Source: an uncultured delta proteobacterium (lineage in GTDB: Bacteria > Desulfobacterota > Desulfovibrionia > Desulfovibrionales > Desulfovibrionaceae). Taken from it: a stretch of DNA of 64,000 bases. The notes below the pieces were generated by a model, which saw nothing but the letters and a program-made list of their open reading frames with translations, was not told the DNA's origin and searched no databases. Location of the stretch: positions 1,324,970 through 1,388,969 of the forward strand of contig LT599018.1 of the NCBI GenBank assembly GCA_900079685.1. Direction: 5' to 3'. The position numbers and the translations under genes are program-made. Of this stretch, positions 23,989 through 54,701 are shown one piece after another; position 1 is the stretch's first letter, and the number at the start of each line of letters is the position of its first letter.

Positions 23989-25362
23989 TCAGTAGCCCTT
24001 GTTCGGGTTCAGGATGCCGTTGGGATCAAAAACCTTGCGCACGGCGCGCATGAGCGCCTGCTCGTCCGCGCCGAGTTGCAGCCCCACGTTCTTGAGGCAC
24101 CCGCCGCCGTGCTCGCCGGAAATGCTGCCGCCGAATTCCAGAACGGCCTCGTCCATGGCGTAGTGGGTTTTCATGGTCCGTTCCGTATCGTCCGGGTCGG
24201 ACGCGTCATAATGCAGATTGGCGTGGATATTCCCGTCGCCCGCGTGGCCGAAGGCGATAAGGCGCTTGCCGTTCTCGCGGGCGATGGCCTCGAACCGCCG
24301 CACGGCAGGCAGCAGTTGCCCGCGTGGCACGGCCATGTCCCCGCCGATGCGGTCCGGCCCCATGACGTACGAGGCGGCGGAAACGCGGCGCCGGTGCGCC
24401 CAGAGAGCGTCTTCCTCCTCCGGGGTGACGCCCGCCGCCTGCCAGAGCGTGTCGTCAAGCTGCCGTCCCAGTCTGGCGATTTCCAGCGGAACGGTGTCTT
24501 TACTGCCGTCCAGCTGGAACAGCAGCAGGGAATTGACCGTATCGGGCCAGGGCGTCTCGCCGGTCTGGCGCAAAATATCCAGCACGGCCTCGCCCATGAA
24601 TTCCAGGGCCGAGGGCAGAATGCCCGCCGCGAAAACCTTGCCCATGGAAAGCAACGCCGCGTCCAGGGAAGGGTACCCGGCCAGGACCGAAGCCGACGCC
24701 TCGGGCTTGGGCAGGAGTTTCAGATAGAGTTTGGTGATGATGCCGAGCGTGCCCTCGGAGCCGACCATGATCCGGGCAAGGTCCAGCCCCACCACGTTTT
24801 TGTGGGTCCGGCCGCCGAAGGTAAGCAGCTTGCCGCCGGGCAGCACCACGTCGCAGCCGATGACGTAATCGCGGGTCACGCCGTACTTGACCGCCCGAAG
24901 CCCGCCCGCGCAGGTGGAAACGTTGCCGCCGACGGAAGTGGCTTTGCCGCTGGCCGGGTCCGGGGGGTACATGAGGCCCTGTTGTTCGCACGCGGCCTGC
25001 AGCGTGGCGGTACAGACGCCCGGCTCCACCTCGGCCACGAAATCGGTGGCGGAAATATCCAGGATGCGGTCCAGCCCCATGGTGGAAAGGACGATGCCCG
25101 GCACCGTGGGGGCGCATCCCCCGGCAAGGCTGGTCCCGCGCCCGCGCGGGTGCACGACGATCCGCTCCGCATCCGCCCAGCGCATGAACGATTGAACCTG
25201 CTCCACGGTATCCGGGCGGACCATGGCGAAAACCTCGCCCGGGACGAGCCCTGCGTCCGACGAGTACACCCGCAGAATTGTTTTATCAAAGCTCACGCCG
25301 TCCCCGAACAGGTCCCGCAAAAACGCGCGGTGCGCGTCCGTCAGCGCTGTGGCGTATTCCAT
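23989..25362 (-). CDS. FAD-linked oxidase (D-lactate dehydrogenase / GlcD-like)
   Basis: A 457-residue flavoprotein of the vanillyl-alcohol oxidase fold. The FAD-binding half shows VVHPRGRGTSLAGG, PDPASGKATSVGGNVSTCAGG and RIMVGSEGTLGI. The C-terminal substrate half ends in FGHAGDGNIHANLHYD, SGEHGGG and DPNGILNPNKGY, all hallmarks of GlcD/Dld-II. The start follows AGGGAG at five bases. With the overlapping Fe-S gene it forms a two-subunit D-2-hydroxyacid oxidase, consistent with lactate use by sulfate reducers. Choice between D-lactate and glycolate cannot be made from sequence. Confidence 0.9.
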   Translation of the reverse strand: MEYATALTDAHRAFLRDLFGDGVSFDKTILRVYSSDAGLVPGEVFAMVRPDTVEQVQSFMRWADAERIVVHPRGRGTSLAGGCAPTVPGIVLSTMGLDRILDISATDFVAEVEPGVCTATLQAACEQQGLMYPPDPASGKATSVGGNVSTCAGGLRAVKYGVTRDYVIGCDVVLPGGKLLTFGGRTHKNVVGLDLARIMVGSEGTLGIITKLYLKLLPKPEASASVLAGYPSLDAALLSMGKVFAAGILPSALEFMGEAVLDILRQTGETPWPDTVNSLLLFQLDGSKDTVPLEIARLGRQLDDTLWQAAGVTPEEEDALWAHRRRVSAASYVMGPDRIGGDMAVPRGQLLPAVRRFEAIARENGKRLIAFGHAGDGNIHANLHYDASDPDDTERTMKTHYAMDEAVLEFGGSISGEHGGGCLKNVGLQLGADEQALMRAVRKVFDPNGILNPNKGY

Positions 25363-49947: not shown

Positions 49948-50406
49948 ATGGCTGTTAAAAAAGCCCCCCGCCGCGCCGAGCGGTCTCTTGCCTTTCAGGT
50001 GCTCTATTCACTGACCTTCACGCCCGCCACCAACGTGCAGGACGTGGCCAAAGCGTTCCGCAAAGCCCCGGAACAAGGCGAACCCGTTGAAAAGACGGGC
50101 GCGCTTGAAGGGTTCGCCTGGGAGCTTGTCGAAGGCGTCTGGACGAACATGGACACAATCGACGCGCACCTTGCCGCCTTTTCCCAGAACTGGCGCATCG
50201 AGCGCATGGGCAAGGTGGAAATCACCCTGCTGCGCCTGGCCCTTTACGAAATACTCTACCGCCACGACGTGCCGCCGAAGGTCGCCATCAACGAGGCCAT
50301 TGAGCTGTCCAAGCAGTTCGGCGACGACGGCTCGCGCGGGTTCGTCAACGGCATCCTCGACGCCGCCGCCAAAGCCGTCGAATCCGGAAAATTACAGCGG
50401 CAGTGA
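49948..50406 (+). CDS. nusB: Transcription antitermination protein NusB
   Basis: A 152-residue helical protein for rRNA antitermination with NusE. The N-terminal RRAERSLAFQVLYSL and C-terminal LRLALYEILYRHDVPPKVAINEAIELSKQFG plus FVNGILDAAAK are the family hallmarks. The linker region (about 30-60) is longer and charged. It is the last gene before the phage-derived island. Confidence 0.95.
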   Translation: MAVKKAPRRAERSLAFQVLYSLTFTPATNVQDVAKAFRKAPEQGEPVEKTGALEGFAWELVEGVWTNMDTIDAHLAAFSQNWRIERMGKVEITLLRLALYEILYRHDVPPKVAINEAIELSKQFGDDGSRGFVNGILDAAAKAVESGKLQRQ

Positions 50407-50407
50407 G

Positions 50408-50446
50408 TGCTGGGGGAAGGGAACCAACAGGGGTGATACAACCCCC
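50408..50446 (+). repeat. Dispersed intergenic repeat, copy C
   Basis: GCTGGGGGAAGGGAACC and AGGGG hairpin, matching copies A (160-225) and B (53869-53939). It lies two bases after the nusB stop and is in inverted orientation to copy B, so the pair brackets the phage remnant. Confidence 0.6.
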
Positions 50447-50475
50447 GATATCTCTAGTTAAGGGTGTTTGATAAA

Positions 50476-50510
50476 CCGGGATATACGGGGAACATCCGGG
50501 AAATATCGGG
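50476..50510. repeat. Two 15-base direct repeats, possible phage end sites
   Basis: CCGGGATATACGGGG (50476-50490) and CCGGGAAATATCGGG (50496-50510) are spaced 20 bases start to start. A related inverted element CCCCCGATAT is at 50442. Mu-like phages carry repeated transposase sites at their ends, so this may be the left end of the eroded prophage. No matching set was found on the right side. Confidence 0.4.
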
Positions 50511-50540
50511 ACACCTTCGTACAACACCTTTGCACATAAT

Positions 50541-50576
50541 GAAACGGGGAGGACTTTGCAAGCCCTCCCTGTTTTT
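50541..50576 (+). terminator. Rho-independent terminator at the island's left side
   Basis: ACGGGGAGG pairs with CCTCCCTGT (one G-U pair) and is followed by TTTTT. It may serve nusB or belong to the phage remnant. Confidence 0.7.
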
Positions 50577-50594
50577 GCACCAGCCGCCCGGCCG

Positions 50595-50760
50595 TCATTC
50601 ATAGGTTGCCCTGGCCGGTACGCAGTCTTCGACGCCGGGCAACGATAACTGTTTGACCCGCCGCCGCTCGCGCTCGGCCGCTATCACCTGATAAAGGTAC
50701 GGTTCGCTCAGGCGGTACTTGACGCGCAGATCGTTGATGTTGTCGCCGGTGACCGGCGAC
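50595..50760 (-). pseudogene. C-terminal fragment of a Mor-type phage transcription activator
   Basis: The minus-strand frame ending at 50595 encodes TGDNINDLRVKYRLSEPYLY, then QVIAAERERRR, which is like the C-terminal helix-turn-helix of the Mor/C family of Mu-like phages (GxNxxELAxKYxLSxxxVYxII). The rest of the protein is missing: beyond about 50755 the frame runs antisense through the baseplate gene with no homology. Inverted orientation relative to the tail genes points to a rearrangement. About 55 of roughly 120-130 residues remain. Confidence 0.55.
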
Positions 50761-51543
50761 CCCGGCCGCGCGGTACCGGCCGGAATGGCATACACCCGCA
50801 AGGACGGGCTTGAATACACGGCAGATTTAGGCGCGACCATAGGGGATGACGGCACCGCGCAACTGAGCCTGACATGCACGGAACCCGGCAAAAACGGCAA
50901 CGCGGACGGACCGTGCAAGCTTCAACTGTCCGAACCCCTGACGGGCGTTCAATCGGAAGCGATAGTGATTGACGGCTTCAGCGGCGGCACGGACGGCGAA
51001 AGCGAAGGCACGTACCGCAGCCGGGTACTTTCCCGCAAACGCAAGCCGGGCCGGGGCGGCAACGACGACGATTACGAATTCTGGACCCTTGAATGCGCCG
51101 GGTTCACGCGGGCATGGCCGCGCCGTGACCTTATGGGCGCGGGAACCGTCGTTGTCTACGCCATGATGGACGGCACTTACGAAGACGGCATTCCCAGGGA
51201 AGGCGACATAGCCCGCCTTCAGGCCCACCTGAACAAGCGGCGGCCCGTACCGGCCGAGGTGTACGCCTTCGCCCCCACCCCGAAACGGTTGGATACCCGG
51301 CTAGCCGTAACCCCGGATACCCCGGCCGTACGGGCCGCCGTGACGGCAAGCATAGCCGCCGCTGTTCGGCGGGACGCGGAACCCGGCACGGCCATTATGC
51401 TTTCCCGCCTTAACGAGGCGATCTCAATAGCCGCCGGGGAAGAGGATCACGTTCTTTTCAGCCCCACGGCGAACGTTCTTCACGCAACCGGCGAGATAGC
51501 CGTACCCGGCACGGTGACATTCGGGGAGGCGAACAATGGATAA
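50719..51543 (+). CDS. Baseplate J-like protein (Mu gp47 type), N-terminally truncated
   Basis: A tail-baseplate protein remnant of about 270 residues; full family members are about 350. The region from about 50755 reads like the middle of baseplate J: PGRAVPAGMAYTRKDGLEYT, then GNADGPCKLQLSEPLTGVQ, IDGFSGGTDGESEGTYRSR, DDDYEFWTLECAGFTRAWPR, and a C-terminal RPVPAEVYAFAPTPKRLD. The N-terminal domain is absent and the present start (TTG 50719 or ATG 50737) has no ribosome binding site, so it may not be translated. The next gene overlaps its end by eight bases. Codons such as ATA, CTA, GTA and TAG-adjacent GCG runs differ from host usage. Confidence 0.8.
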   Translation: MTRRSLMLSPVTGDPGRAVPAGMAYTRKDGLEYTADLGATIGDDGTAQLSLTCTEPGKNGNADGPCKLQLSEPLTGVQSEAIVIDGFSGGTDGESEGTYRSRVLSRKRKPGRGGNDDDYEFWTLECAGFTRAWPRRDLMGAGTVVVYAMMDGTYEDGIPREGDIARLQAHLNKRRPVPAEVYAFAPTPKRLDTRLAVTPDTPAVRAAVTASIAAAVRRDAEPGTAIMLSRLNEAISIAAGEEDHVLFSPTANVLHATGEIAVPGTVTFGEANNG

Positions 51544-52168
51544 GCCGGAAATGGACAAGCTAGAGCAAGAATACTTTGAAGAGCTTGTAGAGCTTCAGCC
51601 CCCCGGCGCGGCCTTGCCCCGCGACCTTGACGCGGTATGGCCCCGGCTTCTCATGGGCGTAGCGGACGGCCACGCGGCGGTAGAGCGCCGGGGAAACGAT
51701 TTGCTACGCGAGGCCGACCCCCGTTCAACCTTTGAGCTTCTTCCCGATTTTGAACGCGAATACGGCTTACCCGACGCATGCAGCCCGGCGGCCGTAACCC
51801 TTCAGGAACGCCGGGACGCCGTTGTAGCCAAAATGCGGGACGAAGGCCGCCACGACCTTGCCTATTGGTACGAACTAGCCGCCGCCCTAGGCTACGAGAT
51901 CGAAATAGACGAGCCCCGGCCCTTCATAGCGGGCGTATCCTGTTGCGGCGATTGCCTGAACGGCGGGCATGAAGTCCGCTTTGAATGGGACGTAACCGTG
52001 AAAGGCCCCCGCGTTACCCTGTTTCGATGCGGCGAATCAACCCCGCCCGACAGCCTAGGCGACATAGCCTACGCCGAAGACCTTGAATGCCGCATACGGG
52101 CGGCCGCGCATTCCCATACGAGAATATTCTTCGACTACGAAGACGACAACGAAGGAGTCAGTTTATGA
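51536..52168 (+). CDS. Phage tail protein of the YmfQ/DUF2313 family (Mu gp48 type)
   Basis: A 210-residue intact phage tail protein. Family landmarks are LQPPGAALPRD, RGNDLLREADPRSTFELLPDFEREYGLPDAC, ERRDAVVAKM, YWYELAAALGYEIEIDEPRPF, and a C-terminal LFRCGESTPPDSLGDI with LECRIRAAAHSHTRIFFDY. It normally follows baseplate J in Mu-like tail modules, as here. Start overlaps J; its TGA overlaps the ATG of the next gene, so all three are arranged for coupled translation. Confidence 0.88.
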   Translation: MDKPEMDKLEQEYFEELVELQPPGAALPRDLDAVWPRLLMGVADGHAAVERRGNDLLREADPRSTFELLPDFEREYGLPDACSPAAVTLQERRDAVVAKMRDEGRHDLAYWYELAAALGYEIEIDEPRPFIAGVSCCGDCLNGGHEVRFEWDVTVKGPRVTLFRCGESTPPDSLGDIAYAEDLECRIRAAAHSHTRIFFDYEDDNEGVSL

Positions 52169-53739
52169 AATACGTACCGCCTTTAGGCAGCACCGACCAG
52201 GACGCCGGTTACGTCAACCGCGTAGGCGCTATGAAAGGCAGCCCGGTACCGGCGGCCGCCATCGAACACCCCATGAGGGAAATTCACAACACAATCAGGG
52301 CGGCGGGCCTGACGCCAAGCGGGGACGTTCTGAACCAGCTTGCCCTTGCCATACAGGCGCTAATCCTGAAAGCCGCGCAAACGCCTTACGAAATCGGCCA
52401 GTACTACCCGTTTGAAGACGAGATGCCTCGGGAAAGCTTTGTCCCCCTGCTAGGCGGCGTTGTCTCAAACATCAGCCGCTACCCCAAGATGATTGAATAC
52501 CTTGAATCCTCTTACGGGCAAGCGCGGCTTGTGACCCAGGCGCAATACGACGCGTTGCACATAGCCTCATCCCTGTTCAACGTTGACACCGGCAACACCT
52601 TCACCCTTGAAGCCGATCTTCCCATAGAGGCCGAGGGATGGAACATCGGCCTGATAGCCGGGCCGAGCGGCAGCGGCAAGAGTTCCCTAGGCGCGGCCCT
52701 TCTGAAGCACGGCTACGCCCTAGCGGACGGCGGCCAGTGGCCCCGGAACGCGCCGATCATAGACGCCATCAACCCGGCCGGAAATTGGCAGAAGATCACC
52801 GCCGCGCTAGCCGCCGTAGGGCTAGGAACCGTCCCGGCATGGCTGAGGCCCTACAACATCCTGTCAACCGGCGAAAAGTTCCGGGCGGAATTGGCCAGGC
52901 TGATTTCCGAAGCCCCGGAAAAGGTAGTGATTGACGAATTCACAAGCGTAGTAGACCGGCAAATAGCCCGCGTAGGCGCGGCCAGCTTTGCCAGGGCATG
53001 GAGAAAAACCGGCGGCAAGGCCGTATGCCTCTCATGCCATTTCGACATAATGGAATGGCTAGAGCCGGATTGGATTTTCAACACCCAAACCGGCACCCTT
53101 GAATGGACGCGGGGGCGGCTTCGACGGCCCGGAATCCCCCTTGAAATACGGGAGACAAACGCCGCGTATTGGCCCCATTTTGCGCCGCACCACTATCTGA
53201 AGGCCCCGCTACCGGTAGCCGCCACCTACTACGTAGGCTTCGTAGGCGCGGAACCGGTAGCGCACATAGCCATAAGCCCGCGCCCCGGCCTGAAGGAAGC
53301 GCGGGCATGCCGGATAGTGGTAATGCCGGAATGGCAGGGCATAGGCGTAGGCATGGCCTTCCTTCATGAGGTATGCGACCTGTGGAGGCGCGGAGAAAAC
53401 CGTTTCAGGATACCCATGCGAACGCTAGTGAACACTTCCCACCCCGGCCTTGCCTCAGCCCTACGCCGCCACCCGCAATGGACGCAGATAACGGCGGACC
53501 TACACGGCGCGGACAAGACGCGGAGCAAGGCGGCGCTTACCCGCACGGCCACCCGGCAAGGATGGTACAACAAGACCCCAACCGGCTACGGCGGCCATTT
53601 CAGGGCCGTACAGTGCTTCAGGTACCTAGGCGAGGAAGCGCCCGCCCTGAAAGAGGCGAGAAAGGCCGAAAACGCCCCAGGATCGACGCAAAGCCCCCCG
53701 GCCGGGCCAAAGGCCGTAACAGACGAAAAAACCCCTTGA
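52165..53739 (+). CDS. Fusion of phage tail-fibre N-terminus with ABC ATPase and GNAT acetyltransferase (COG2401-like)
   Basis: A 524-residue protein in three parts. Residues 1 to about 130 match the start of phage tail fibres (VPPLGSTDQDAGYVNRVGAM, then LLGGVVSNISRYPKMIEYL, ARLVTQAQYDALH). From about 132 it becomes an ABC ATPase: Walker A GPSGSGKSS (166-174), signature-like ILSTGEKFRAELARL (233 on), Walker B KVVIDEFTSVVD (253 on), and SCHFDIMEWLEPDWIF. Residues 340-510 are a GNAT domain with RIVVMPEWQGIGVGMAF (383 on) as acetyl-CoA loop and later NTSHPGLASALRRHPQW. COG2401 is the known ABC-ATPase/acetyltransferase family, met in archaea and phages. The tail-fibre fusion looks like an in-frame deletion joint. 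The start has GAAGGAG. The reading frame is fully open. Confidence 0.82.
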   Translation: MKYVPPLGSTDQDAGYVNRVGAMKGSPVPAAAIEHPMREIHNTIRAAGLTPSGDVLNQLALAIQALILKAAQTPYEIGQYYPFEDEMPRESFVPLLGGVVSNISRYPKMIEYLESSYGQARLVTQAQYDALHIASSLFNVDTGNTFTLEADLPIEAEGWNIGLIAGPSGSGKSSLGAALLKHGYALADGGQWPRNAPIIDAINPAGNWQKITAALAAVGLGTVPAWLRPYNILSTGEKFRAELARLISEAPEKVVIDEFTSVVDRQIARVGAASFARAWRKTGGKAVCLSCHFDIMEWLEPDWIFNTQTGTLEWTRGRLRRPGIPLEIRETNAAYWPHFAPHHYLKAPLPVAATYYVGFVGAEPVAHIAISPRPGLKEARACRIVVMPEWQGIGVGMAFLHEVCDLWRRGENRFRIPMRTLVNTSHPGLASALRRHPQWTQITADLHGADKTRSKAALTRTATRQGWYNKTPTGYGGHFRAVQCFRYLGEEAPALKEARKAENAPGSTQSPPAGPKAVTDEKTP

Positions 53740-53753
53740 ACGGGGCATGACAA

Positions 53754-53782
53754 GGGGGGCCTTCACGGCCCCCCAAAGTTTT
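53754..53782 (+). terminator. Terminator after the fusion gene
   Basis: GGGGGGCC-TTCAC-GGCCCCCC followed by AAAGTTTTG. Strong stem, moderate T-tract. Confidence 0.75.
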
Positions 53783-53868
53783 GTTATCTGTAATTCCCTT
53801 TCACGATAAGAAACGCGGGAGAGGGGGAACTTATCAAGCGCCGGGGCCGCAATTTTTCGCGCGCGGCA

Positions 53869-53939
53869 TCACAGGGGCTGAGCCCCTGATGGTTCCCTTC
53901 CCCCAGACCCCCTTCCCTCCTTTACCCGCGATAGGGTTG
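53869..53939 (-). repeat. Dispersed intergenic repeat, copy B
   Basis: Reverse complement of copy A (160-225) over about 65 bases, including AACCCTATC, GGAGGGA, GGGGGTCTGGGGGAAGGGAACC and an AGGGGCT-AGCCCCT hairpin. With copy C it brackets the phage-derived genes as an inverted pair. Confidence 0.7.
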
Positions 53940-54161: not shown

Positions 54162-54701
54162 CTAGTTGTCCGGGTTTCCCTTCACGTACAGCGGCAGGCC
54201 GCTGACCATGAAGACCATGGTATCCGCGACCAGGGCGGCTCTCTGGTTCACCAGGCCGGCCATGTCACGGAATTGACGTCCCAGGGCGTTCTCCGGCACC
54301 AGGCCCATGCCCACTTCGTTGGTCACCAGAACGACGGGTTTGCCGCACTCGCGGAGCGATGTGAGCAGCCGGGTTGTCAGCGCAAGGGTTCCGGCCTCGT
54401 CATAGCCTTTCTCCAGGCACAGCGAGGTCCAGAGCGTCAGGCAGTCGAACAGCAGCACATCCCCCATGGCCGAAGCCGACGCGGCCAACCGCTCGGGCGT
54501 TTCCCACGGGCCGGAAGCGACCTCGTACGTGGCCCAGCCCTCCCCGCGAGAGGCCTGGTGCCGCGCGATCCGGCGGTGCATTTCCTCATCGCCGCCGTCG
54601 TAGGCTGTGGCCATGTATACCCGTAAGGCGGCGCGGGATTCCGCCCATTGCCGCGCGAACTCGCTCTTGCCGCTCCGGCAGCCGCCGGTACATACCAACA
54701 T
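54162..54701 (-). CDS. cobU: Adenosylcobinamide kinase / guanylyltransferase
   Basis: A 179-residue bifunctional enzyme of late cobalamin assembly. P-loop GGCRSGKSEFARQWAE, RIARHQASRGEGW with the guanylylated His, LLFDCLTLWTSLCL, and VTNEVGMGLVPENALGRQFRDMAGLVNQRAA are all family hallmarks. The start at 54701 follows GAGGT; an upstream extension (to 54782) has no homology. No cobalamin riboswitch is visible nearby, and no other cob genes lie in the window. Confidence 0.95.
   Translation of the reverse strand: MLVCTGGCRSGKSEFARQWAESRAALRVYMATAYDGGDEEMHRRIARHQASRGEGWATYEVASGPWETPERLAASASAMGDVLLFDCLTLWTSLCLEKGYDEAGTLALTTRLLTSLRECGKPVVLVTNEVGMGLVPENALGRQFRDMAGLVNQRAALVADTMVFMVSGLPLYVKGNPDN

Follow-up and report, generated by a model that had tools for sequence, protein, structure and literature searches.

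A fused tail-fibre and ABC-GNAT gene as probable cargo of a natural transposase-less mini-element of a transposable phage

A single open frame in a bacterial genome joins the N-terminus of a phage tail fibre to an ABC ATPase and a GNAT acetyltransferase domain, which raises the questions of what carries this frame, how it arose and whether its product is in use. We analysed a window of 64,000 nucleotides (positions below refer to it unless a contig is named) together with the host genome of 4.0 Mb in 3 contigs. The frame runs from an ATG at 52165 to a stop codon at 53739 and encodes 524 amino acids without internal stops; an alternative in-frame ATG at 52087 would give 550. Residues 1–71 match phrog_17588, a phage family with no function assigned, and residues 132–492 match the ABC-GNAT family PHROG 11143 (357 positions, E 6e-135). 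The ABC ATPase and GNAT motifs expected of the latter family are all present: Walker A (G166–S174), the signature L233-STGE, Walker B (D257-E258), a D-loop (S261-V-V-D264) and H292 in the ABC part, and Q391-G-x-G-x-G396 in the GNAT part. The frame, its fibre N-terminus and both domains thus correspond to the preliminary description of the locus, which had also placed the Walker A, signature and Walker B motifs correctly.

When the window was compared with the remainder of the genome, 50431–53871 was found again 1.1 Mb away at 99.7% identity. Base-by-base comparison of the copies delimits an element of 3,438 bp at 50434–53871 with the ends TGATAC...GCATCA. The second copy (G000:C1:2475629-2479066, where G000 is the host genome and C1 one of its contigs) has the same internal joints. 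Target duplications of 6 bp flank both copies, CAGGGG in the window and GTTGGT at the second site. The features of the window copy are:

50413–50433, no strand: host hairpin repeat interrupted by the element, left part; the joined flanks form a nearly perfect hairpin
50428–50433, no strand: left copy of the 6-bp target duplication CAGGGG, identical to 53872–53877
50434–50600, plus strand: left end of the element (TGATACAACC..., CGGGA-type repeats), aligning from base 1 with the left end of the G289 prophage
50595–50768, minus strand: 3' fragment of a Mor-family late-activator gene (PF08765 positions 70–100 of 107)
50745–50765, no strand: first deletion joint (Mor fragment/baseplate J), set by the end of the Mor match and the start of the J match
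50719–51543, plus strand: baseplate protein J (Mu gp47-like), 5'-truncated (PF04865 positions 29–255, E 8e-50)
51536–52168, plus strand: gp48-like baseplate gene, apparently complete (PF10076 E 6e-23, phrog_203 E 3e-56)
52165–53739, plus strand: fused gene, tail-fibre N-terminus (residues 1 to about 132), ABC ATPase-GNAT (about 133–492) and an extra tail
52552–52569, plus strand: second deletion joint (fibre/ABC-GNAT), from alignments with the L160 fibre and 104 free-standing ABC-GNATs
53740–53871, plus strand: right end of the element, terminating in TTTTTCGCGCGCGGCATCA; last 17 bases shared with G289, G220 and Komp_PAO1_1
53872–53877, no strand: right copy of the target duplication CAGGGG
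53872–53905, no strand: host hairpin repeat interrupted by the element, right part

No transposase ORF lies within 50434–53871, and head and lysis genes are absent as well. A terminator-like hairpin (53754–53774) is located inside the right end. The Mor fragment scores under the curated cut-off of its family (PF08765, E 2e-4), and its location and strand match those of the late activator in G289. An Rfam search gave no genuine match. A weak match to the left end at C1:2902487 falls in an ABC-transporter coding region and was rejected. Since the two duplications differ and lie at different points of the hairpin, the copies represent two insertions, and from their identical joints we infer that the deletions preceded at least one of these. 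The internally deleted form has thus moved as a unit. The locus had previously been taken for an eroded Mu-like prophage, a view contradicted by the two precise ends and the second copy. The larger finding is the carrier of the fusion, a natural transposase-less mini-transposable-phage that moved.

The window copy lies between two genes, a nusB-like ORF that ends shortly before it, at 50406, and a cobU-like gene on the minus strand that ends at 54162, both so named by inspection. When the flanks are joined minus one duplication, an almost perfect hairpin is restored at both sites. Repeats of this hairpin family (GGGGGAAGGGAACC...GGTTCCCTTCCCCC) are intergenic and occur at about nine places of the genome, e.g. 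G000:C1:1325160 and 2517080. As both insertions sit in such hairpins, the repeat may be a preferred insertion target.

An intact prophage with homologous ends is present in G289, another genome of the family. It comprises 36,774 bp with ends TGATAC...GCATCA and the duplication AGGGGA, and both of its ends align with those of the element to the terminal base. In the orientation of the element, the left end is followed on the minus strand by the late activator, B and A; after A come terS, terL, portal, tape measure, J, gp48, fibre, Dam and the right end. The parts retained in the element show the matching order and orientation, and its truncated J matches that of G289 at 49%. Phages of the B3/BcepMu type, such as the one in G289, are like the element in their TGAT...GCATCA ends and 6-bp duplication, in the minus-strand late activator adjoining the left end and in the order J, gp48, fibre, modification gene, right end. 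The element differs in having 3,438 bp, two copies and no transposase, head or lysis genes. Target duplications of phage B3 have 6 bp, those of Mu 5 (PMC8705779).

Exact matches to the terminal 17 bp of the right end occur in G220, G289, the transposable Pseudomonas phage Komp_PAO1_1, where they lie just past a formyltransferase gene, and 51 IMG/VR contigs. In the host genome this 17-mer occurs twice, both times within the mini-element copies, so a matching full-length prophage is absent. Searches of IMG/VR for the left-end pattern and, by peptide pattern, for gp48 gave no match. We also looked for other mini-elements in the sequence around 124 right ends (51 from IMG/VR, 73 from genomes), defined by a TGAT preceded by the matching 6-mer; none was found, and the three 5-bp matches observed are chance-like.

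A transposase with matching ends was not found in the host genome. We can therefore only infer help in trans, for which a related phage presumably supplied the transposase. A single Mu-transposase match exists in the genome, at C1:929041; it belongs to another Mu-like prophage, which has no DNA in common with the element or with either of its ends and was rejected as helper. This second, unrelated region (G000:C1 ~920000-932000; L116, L117) contains a transposase ORF of 733 amino acids and, past the tail genes, a Dam-like gene.

The usual arrangement of the ABC-GNAT gene can be seen in Komp_PAO1_1, whose genes are ordered J, gp48, fibre, fibre assembly, two small ORFs, ABC-GNAT, formyltransferase and right end. 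Formyltransferase is the usual neighbour of free-standing ABC-GNATs. The set of small ORF, ABC-GNAT and formyltransferase was found in five genomes of the family (G054, G152, G206, G232, G240), and a similar set in G280 and a fecal phage; distant ABC-GNATs from IMG/VR (31–41% identity) lack both neighbours. The second small ORF of Komp_PAO1_1 is phrog_28816. This peptide of about 49 amino acids preceding ABC-GNAT (L119:5792-5941) corresponds to the C-terminal tail of a Gordonia-phage ParB-like protein (L120:1-600) and might mediate the contact with ABC-GNAT. In Gordonia phages the ParB-like gene adjoins ABC-GNAT and the formyltransferase then follows. Gene 3 of the Gordonia phage Sisko (L120:1814-2464) is annotated as a tRNA-methyltransferase and matches Formyl_trans_N of Pfam (E 5e-10) and PHROG 9240. 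In phage Jace (L122:5050-6161) the genes after a distant ABC-GNAT encode an aspartate decarboxylase and a CoA-transferase-like protein, with no formyltransferase, hinting at a different acyl donor. The Komp_PAO1_1 record (L172, PQ287647.1) extends beyond the right end at 24218; it seems rotated to the terS start and may include host DNA after this position, past which a simple search revealed no left end.

Mu keeps mom at the right-end slot. Mom resembles ABC-GNAT in this position, in a GNAT-like domain and in its proposed anti-restriction role, but has no ABC ATPase. In the phages compared here the slot also holds a Dam DNA methylase, namely in 8 of 51 IMG/VR loci and in G289. An origin of the ABC-GNAT gene from the right end of the phage, as suggested before, is supported by its place in Komp_PAO1_1. 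The accompanying idea of a DNA-modification gene fits the frequent occurrence of Dam in the slot and the acyl-modification role predicted for phage ABC-GNATs. In the mini-element the genes for ParB or its tail and for formyltransferase are absent; 132 bp lead from the stop codon to the right end, and the fibre part lies upstream.

We located the point at which the fibre gives way to ABC-GNAT from both sides. Residues 76–132 of the fused protein match at 61% a tail fibre of 553 amino acids encoded in a further genome of the family (L160), which stays an ordinary fibre beyond the point where the fused frame switches. On the other side, ABC-GNAT relatives with a readable start (n = 104) begin 14–57 residues, mostly 14–29 and most often 18–20, before the equivalent of residue 133. 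From the end of the fibre alignment and these start points, the joint is placed by sequence comparison at about residues 130–135; the PHROG 11143 match from residue 132, obtained by the search against phage families that had been proposed, maps it likewise. The ABC-GNAT part is 57–65% identical to the Komp_PAO1_1 and G054 proteins. The relatives closest to it have in common an N-terminal motif like FDSYRAARVKSLFN, and the conserved head of PHROG 11143 (SYRAAxVxSLFN) is absent from the fused frame, its first ~18 residues being replaced by the fibre N-terminus. The protein hence resembles PHROG 11143 members in both domains and all their motifs, but lacks this head as well as the formyltransferase and ParB-tail peptide that accompany them. 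Given the gene order of Komp_PAO1_1, with the fibre ahead of ABC-GNAT and the right end, an in-frame deletion yields the observed joint.

Whether the fused protein still acts is a separate question. Phage GNAT-ABC proteins were predicted to acyl-modify a DNA base (Iyer et al. 2013, as cited in PMC7824862), and a functional product modifying DNA or another target would let the element spread a protective or anti-restriction trait. The frame is open in both copies, the catalytic motifs are intact, and in the ABC-GNAT part, the joint apart, only 5 columns that are otherwise invariant carry a different residue, compared with 0–12 in its relatives, so that no decay is visible. Between the copies the fused frame has 4 silent changes and 1 replacement (P about 0.02 under neutrality). 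This ratio is weak evidence, since it depends on five clustered changes: 8 of the 9 differences between the element copies fall in the last 370 bp (53502–53853; P about 1e-7), a pattern suggesting that sequence was exchanged with a third related copy or that the assembly collapsed the interior of the repeat. Together, the few changes and the 4:1 ratio may reflect either selection or youth. Against function stand the loss of the SYRAAxVxSLFN head, the formyltransferase and the ParB-tail peptide, and the lack of a sigma-70-like promoter in a scan of the element. We thus consider a functional protein rather unlikely. As the conserved N-terminal segment and both partners are gone, sequence comparison suggests that the fused protein is probably a passenger without full DNA-modification activity. 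The earlier proposal that the frame is still open because it is used is accordingly the less likely reading, little decay notwithstanding.

An AlphaFold model of the whole fusion reached a pLDDT of only 54.6 and was set aside. The ABC-GNAT part reached 72.4 with the fold of an ABC ATPase, and its ABC domain matches ABC ATPases at Z ~15; these matches are dominated by the ABC domain and hardly probe the GNAT part. In a Foldseek search of viral structures the model also matched phage GNATs and one Mom protein, weakly, at rank 42. No sequence match of the fused frame to the Mom family was found in Pfam or PHROGs.

Taken as a whole, the frame is very likely cargo, carried by a natural mini-transposable-phage that moved when deletion had already deprived it of its transposase. 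The parent would have been a B3/BcepMu-type phage with left end, late activator and transposition genes reading leftward, head and tail genes, then J, gp48, fibre, modification genes and right end. About 33 kb would have been lost through at least two internal deletions that kept both ends. One of these would have started within the fibre gene and ended, in frame, near codon 20 of ABC-GNAT; the formyltransferase gene would also have gone. The 3,438-bp remainder stayed mobile, presumably through a related phage's transposase acting in trans, and entered two sites, generating a different 6-bp duplication at either.

The element might also be a natural satellite of transposable phages, reduced to 3.4 kb with just its two ends and the fused gene, moved and perhaps packaged by a helper phage and directed to host hairpin repeats, its fused protein serving in anti-restriction or being anchored by the fibre on helper virions; we regard this as improbable. 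Instead of transposition, the dispersed hairpin repeats could have produced the two copies by homologous recombination or gene conversion, in line with the position of both copies within the same repeat family. However, the copies are inserted at different points of the hairpin and are flanked by different duplications, whereas recombination would have carried one duplication to both sites, which contradicts this reading and makes it very improbable. That the fusion is an established phage architecture is scarcely credible. No point in its favour was found; a fibre N-terminus is present in 0 of the 104 relatives with a readable start, phage records match the fused frame from residue 97 onward only, and the genome contigs scanned contained no match to the fusion. 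The deletion joint proposed in the preliminary description is thereby supported: a conserved three-part architecture, which would have opposed it, was looked for among these relatives and not found, and fibre and ABC-GNAT exist as separate genes, e.g. in Komp_PAO1_1, in an order from which the joint follows. Decay of a normal prophage in place by unrelated deletions, which would leave only late genes and ends as seen here, is the least credible, being contradicted by identical internal joints at two loci and hence by deletions that predate at least one insertion.

Mini-Mus are laboratory constructs. In the open literature we found papers on engineered mini-Mu elements only and none on natural ones, which does not prove their absence. 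Like the engineered mini-Mu and mini-D3112 (PMC8705779), the element has kept its ends, lost lethal phage genes and remained mobile, but it is natural and without a transposase of its own. A natural transposase-less derivative that moved would mean that transposable phages spawn small non-autonomous elements. Insertion sequences give rise to MITEs in the same way. Such mini-elements would carry right-end cargo genes about. The little-studied ABC-GNAT/formyltransferase cassette is now placed in the right-end slot of mom and Dam, and its predicted DNA-modification role can therefore be put to a direct test in intact phages, Komp_PAO1_1 among them.
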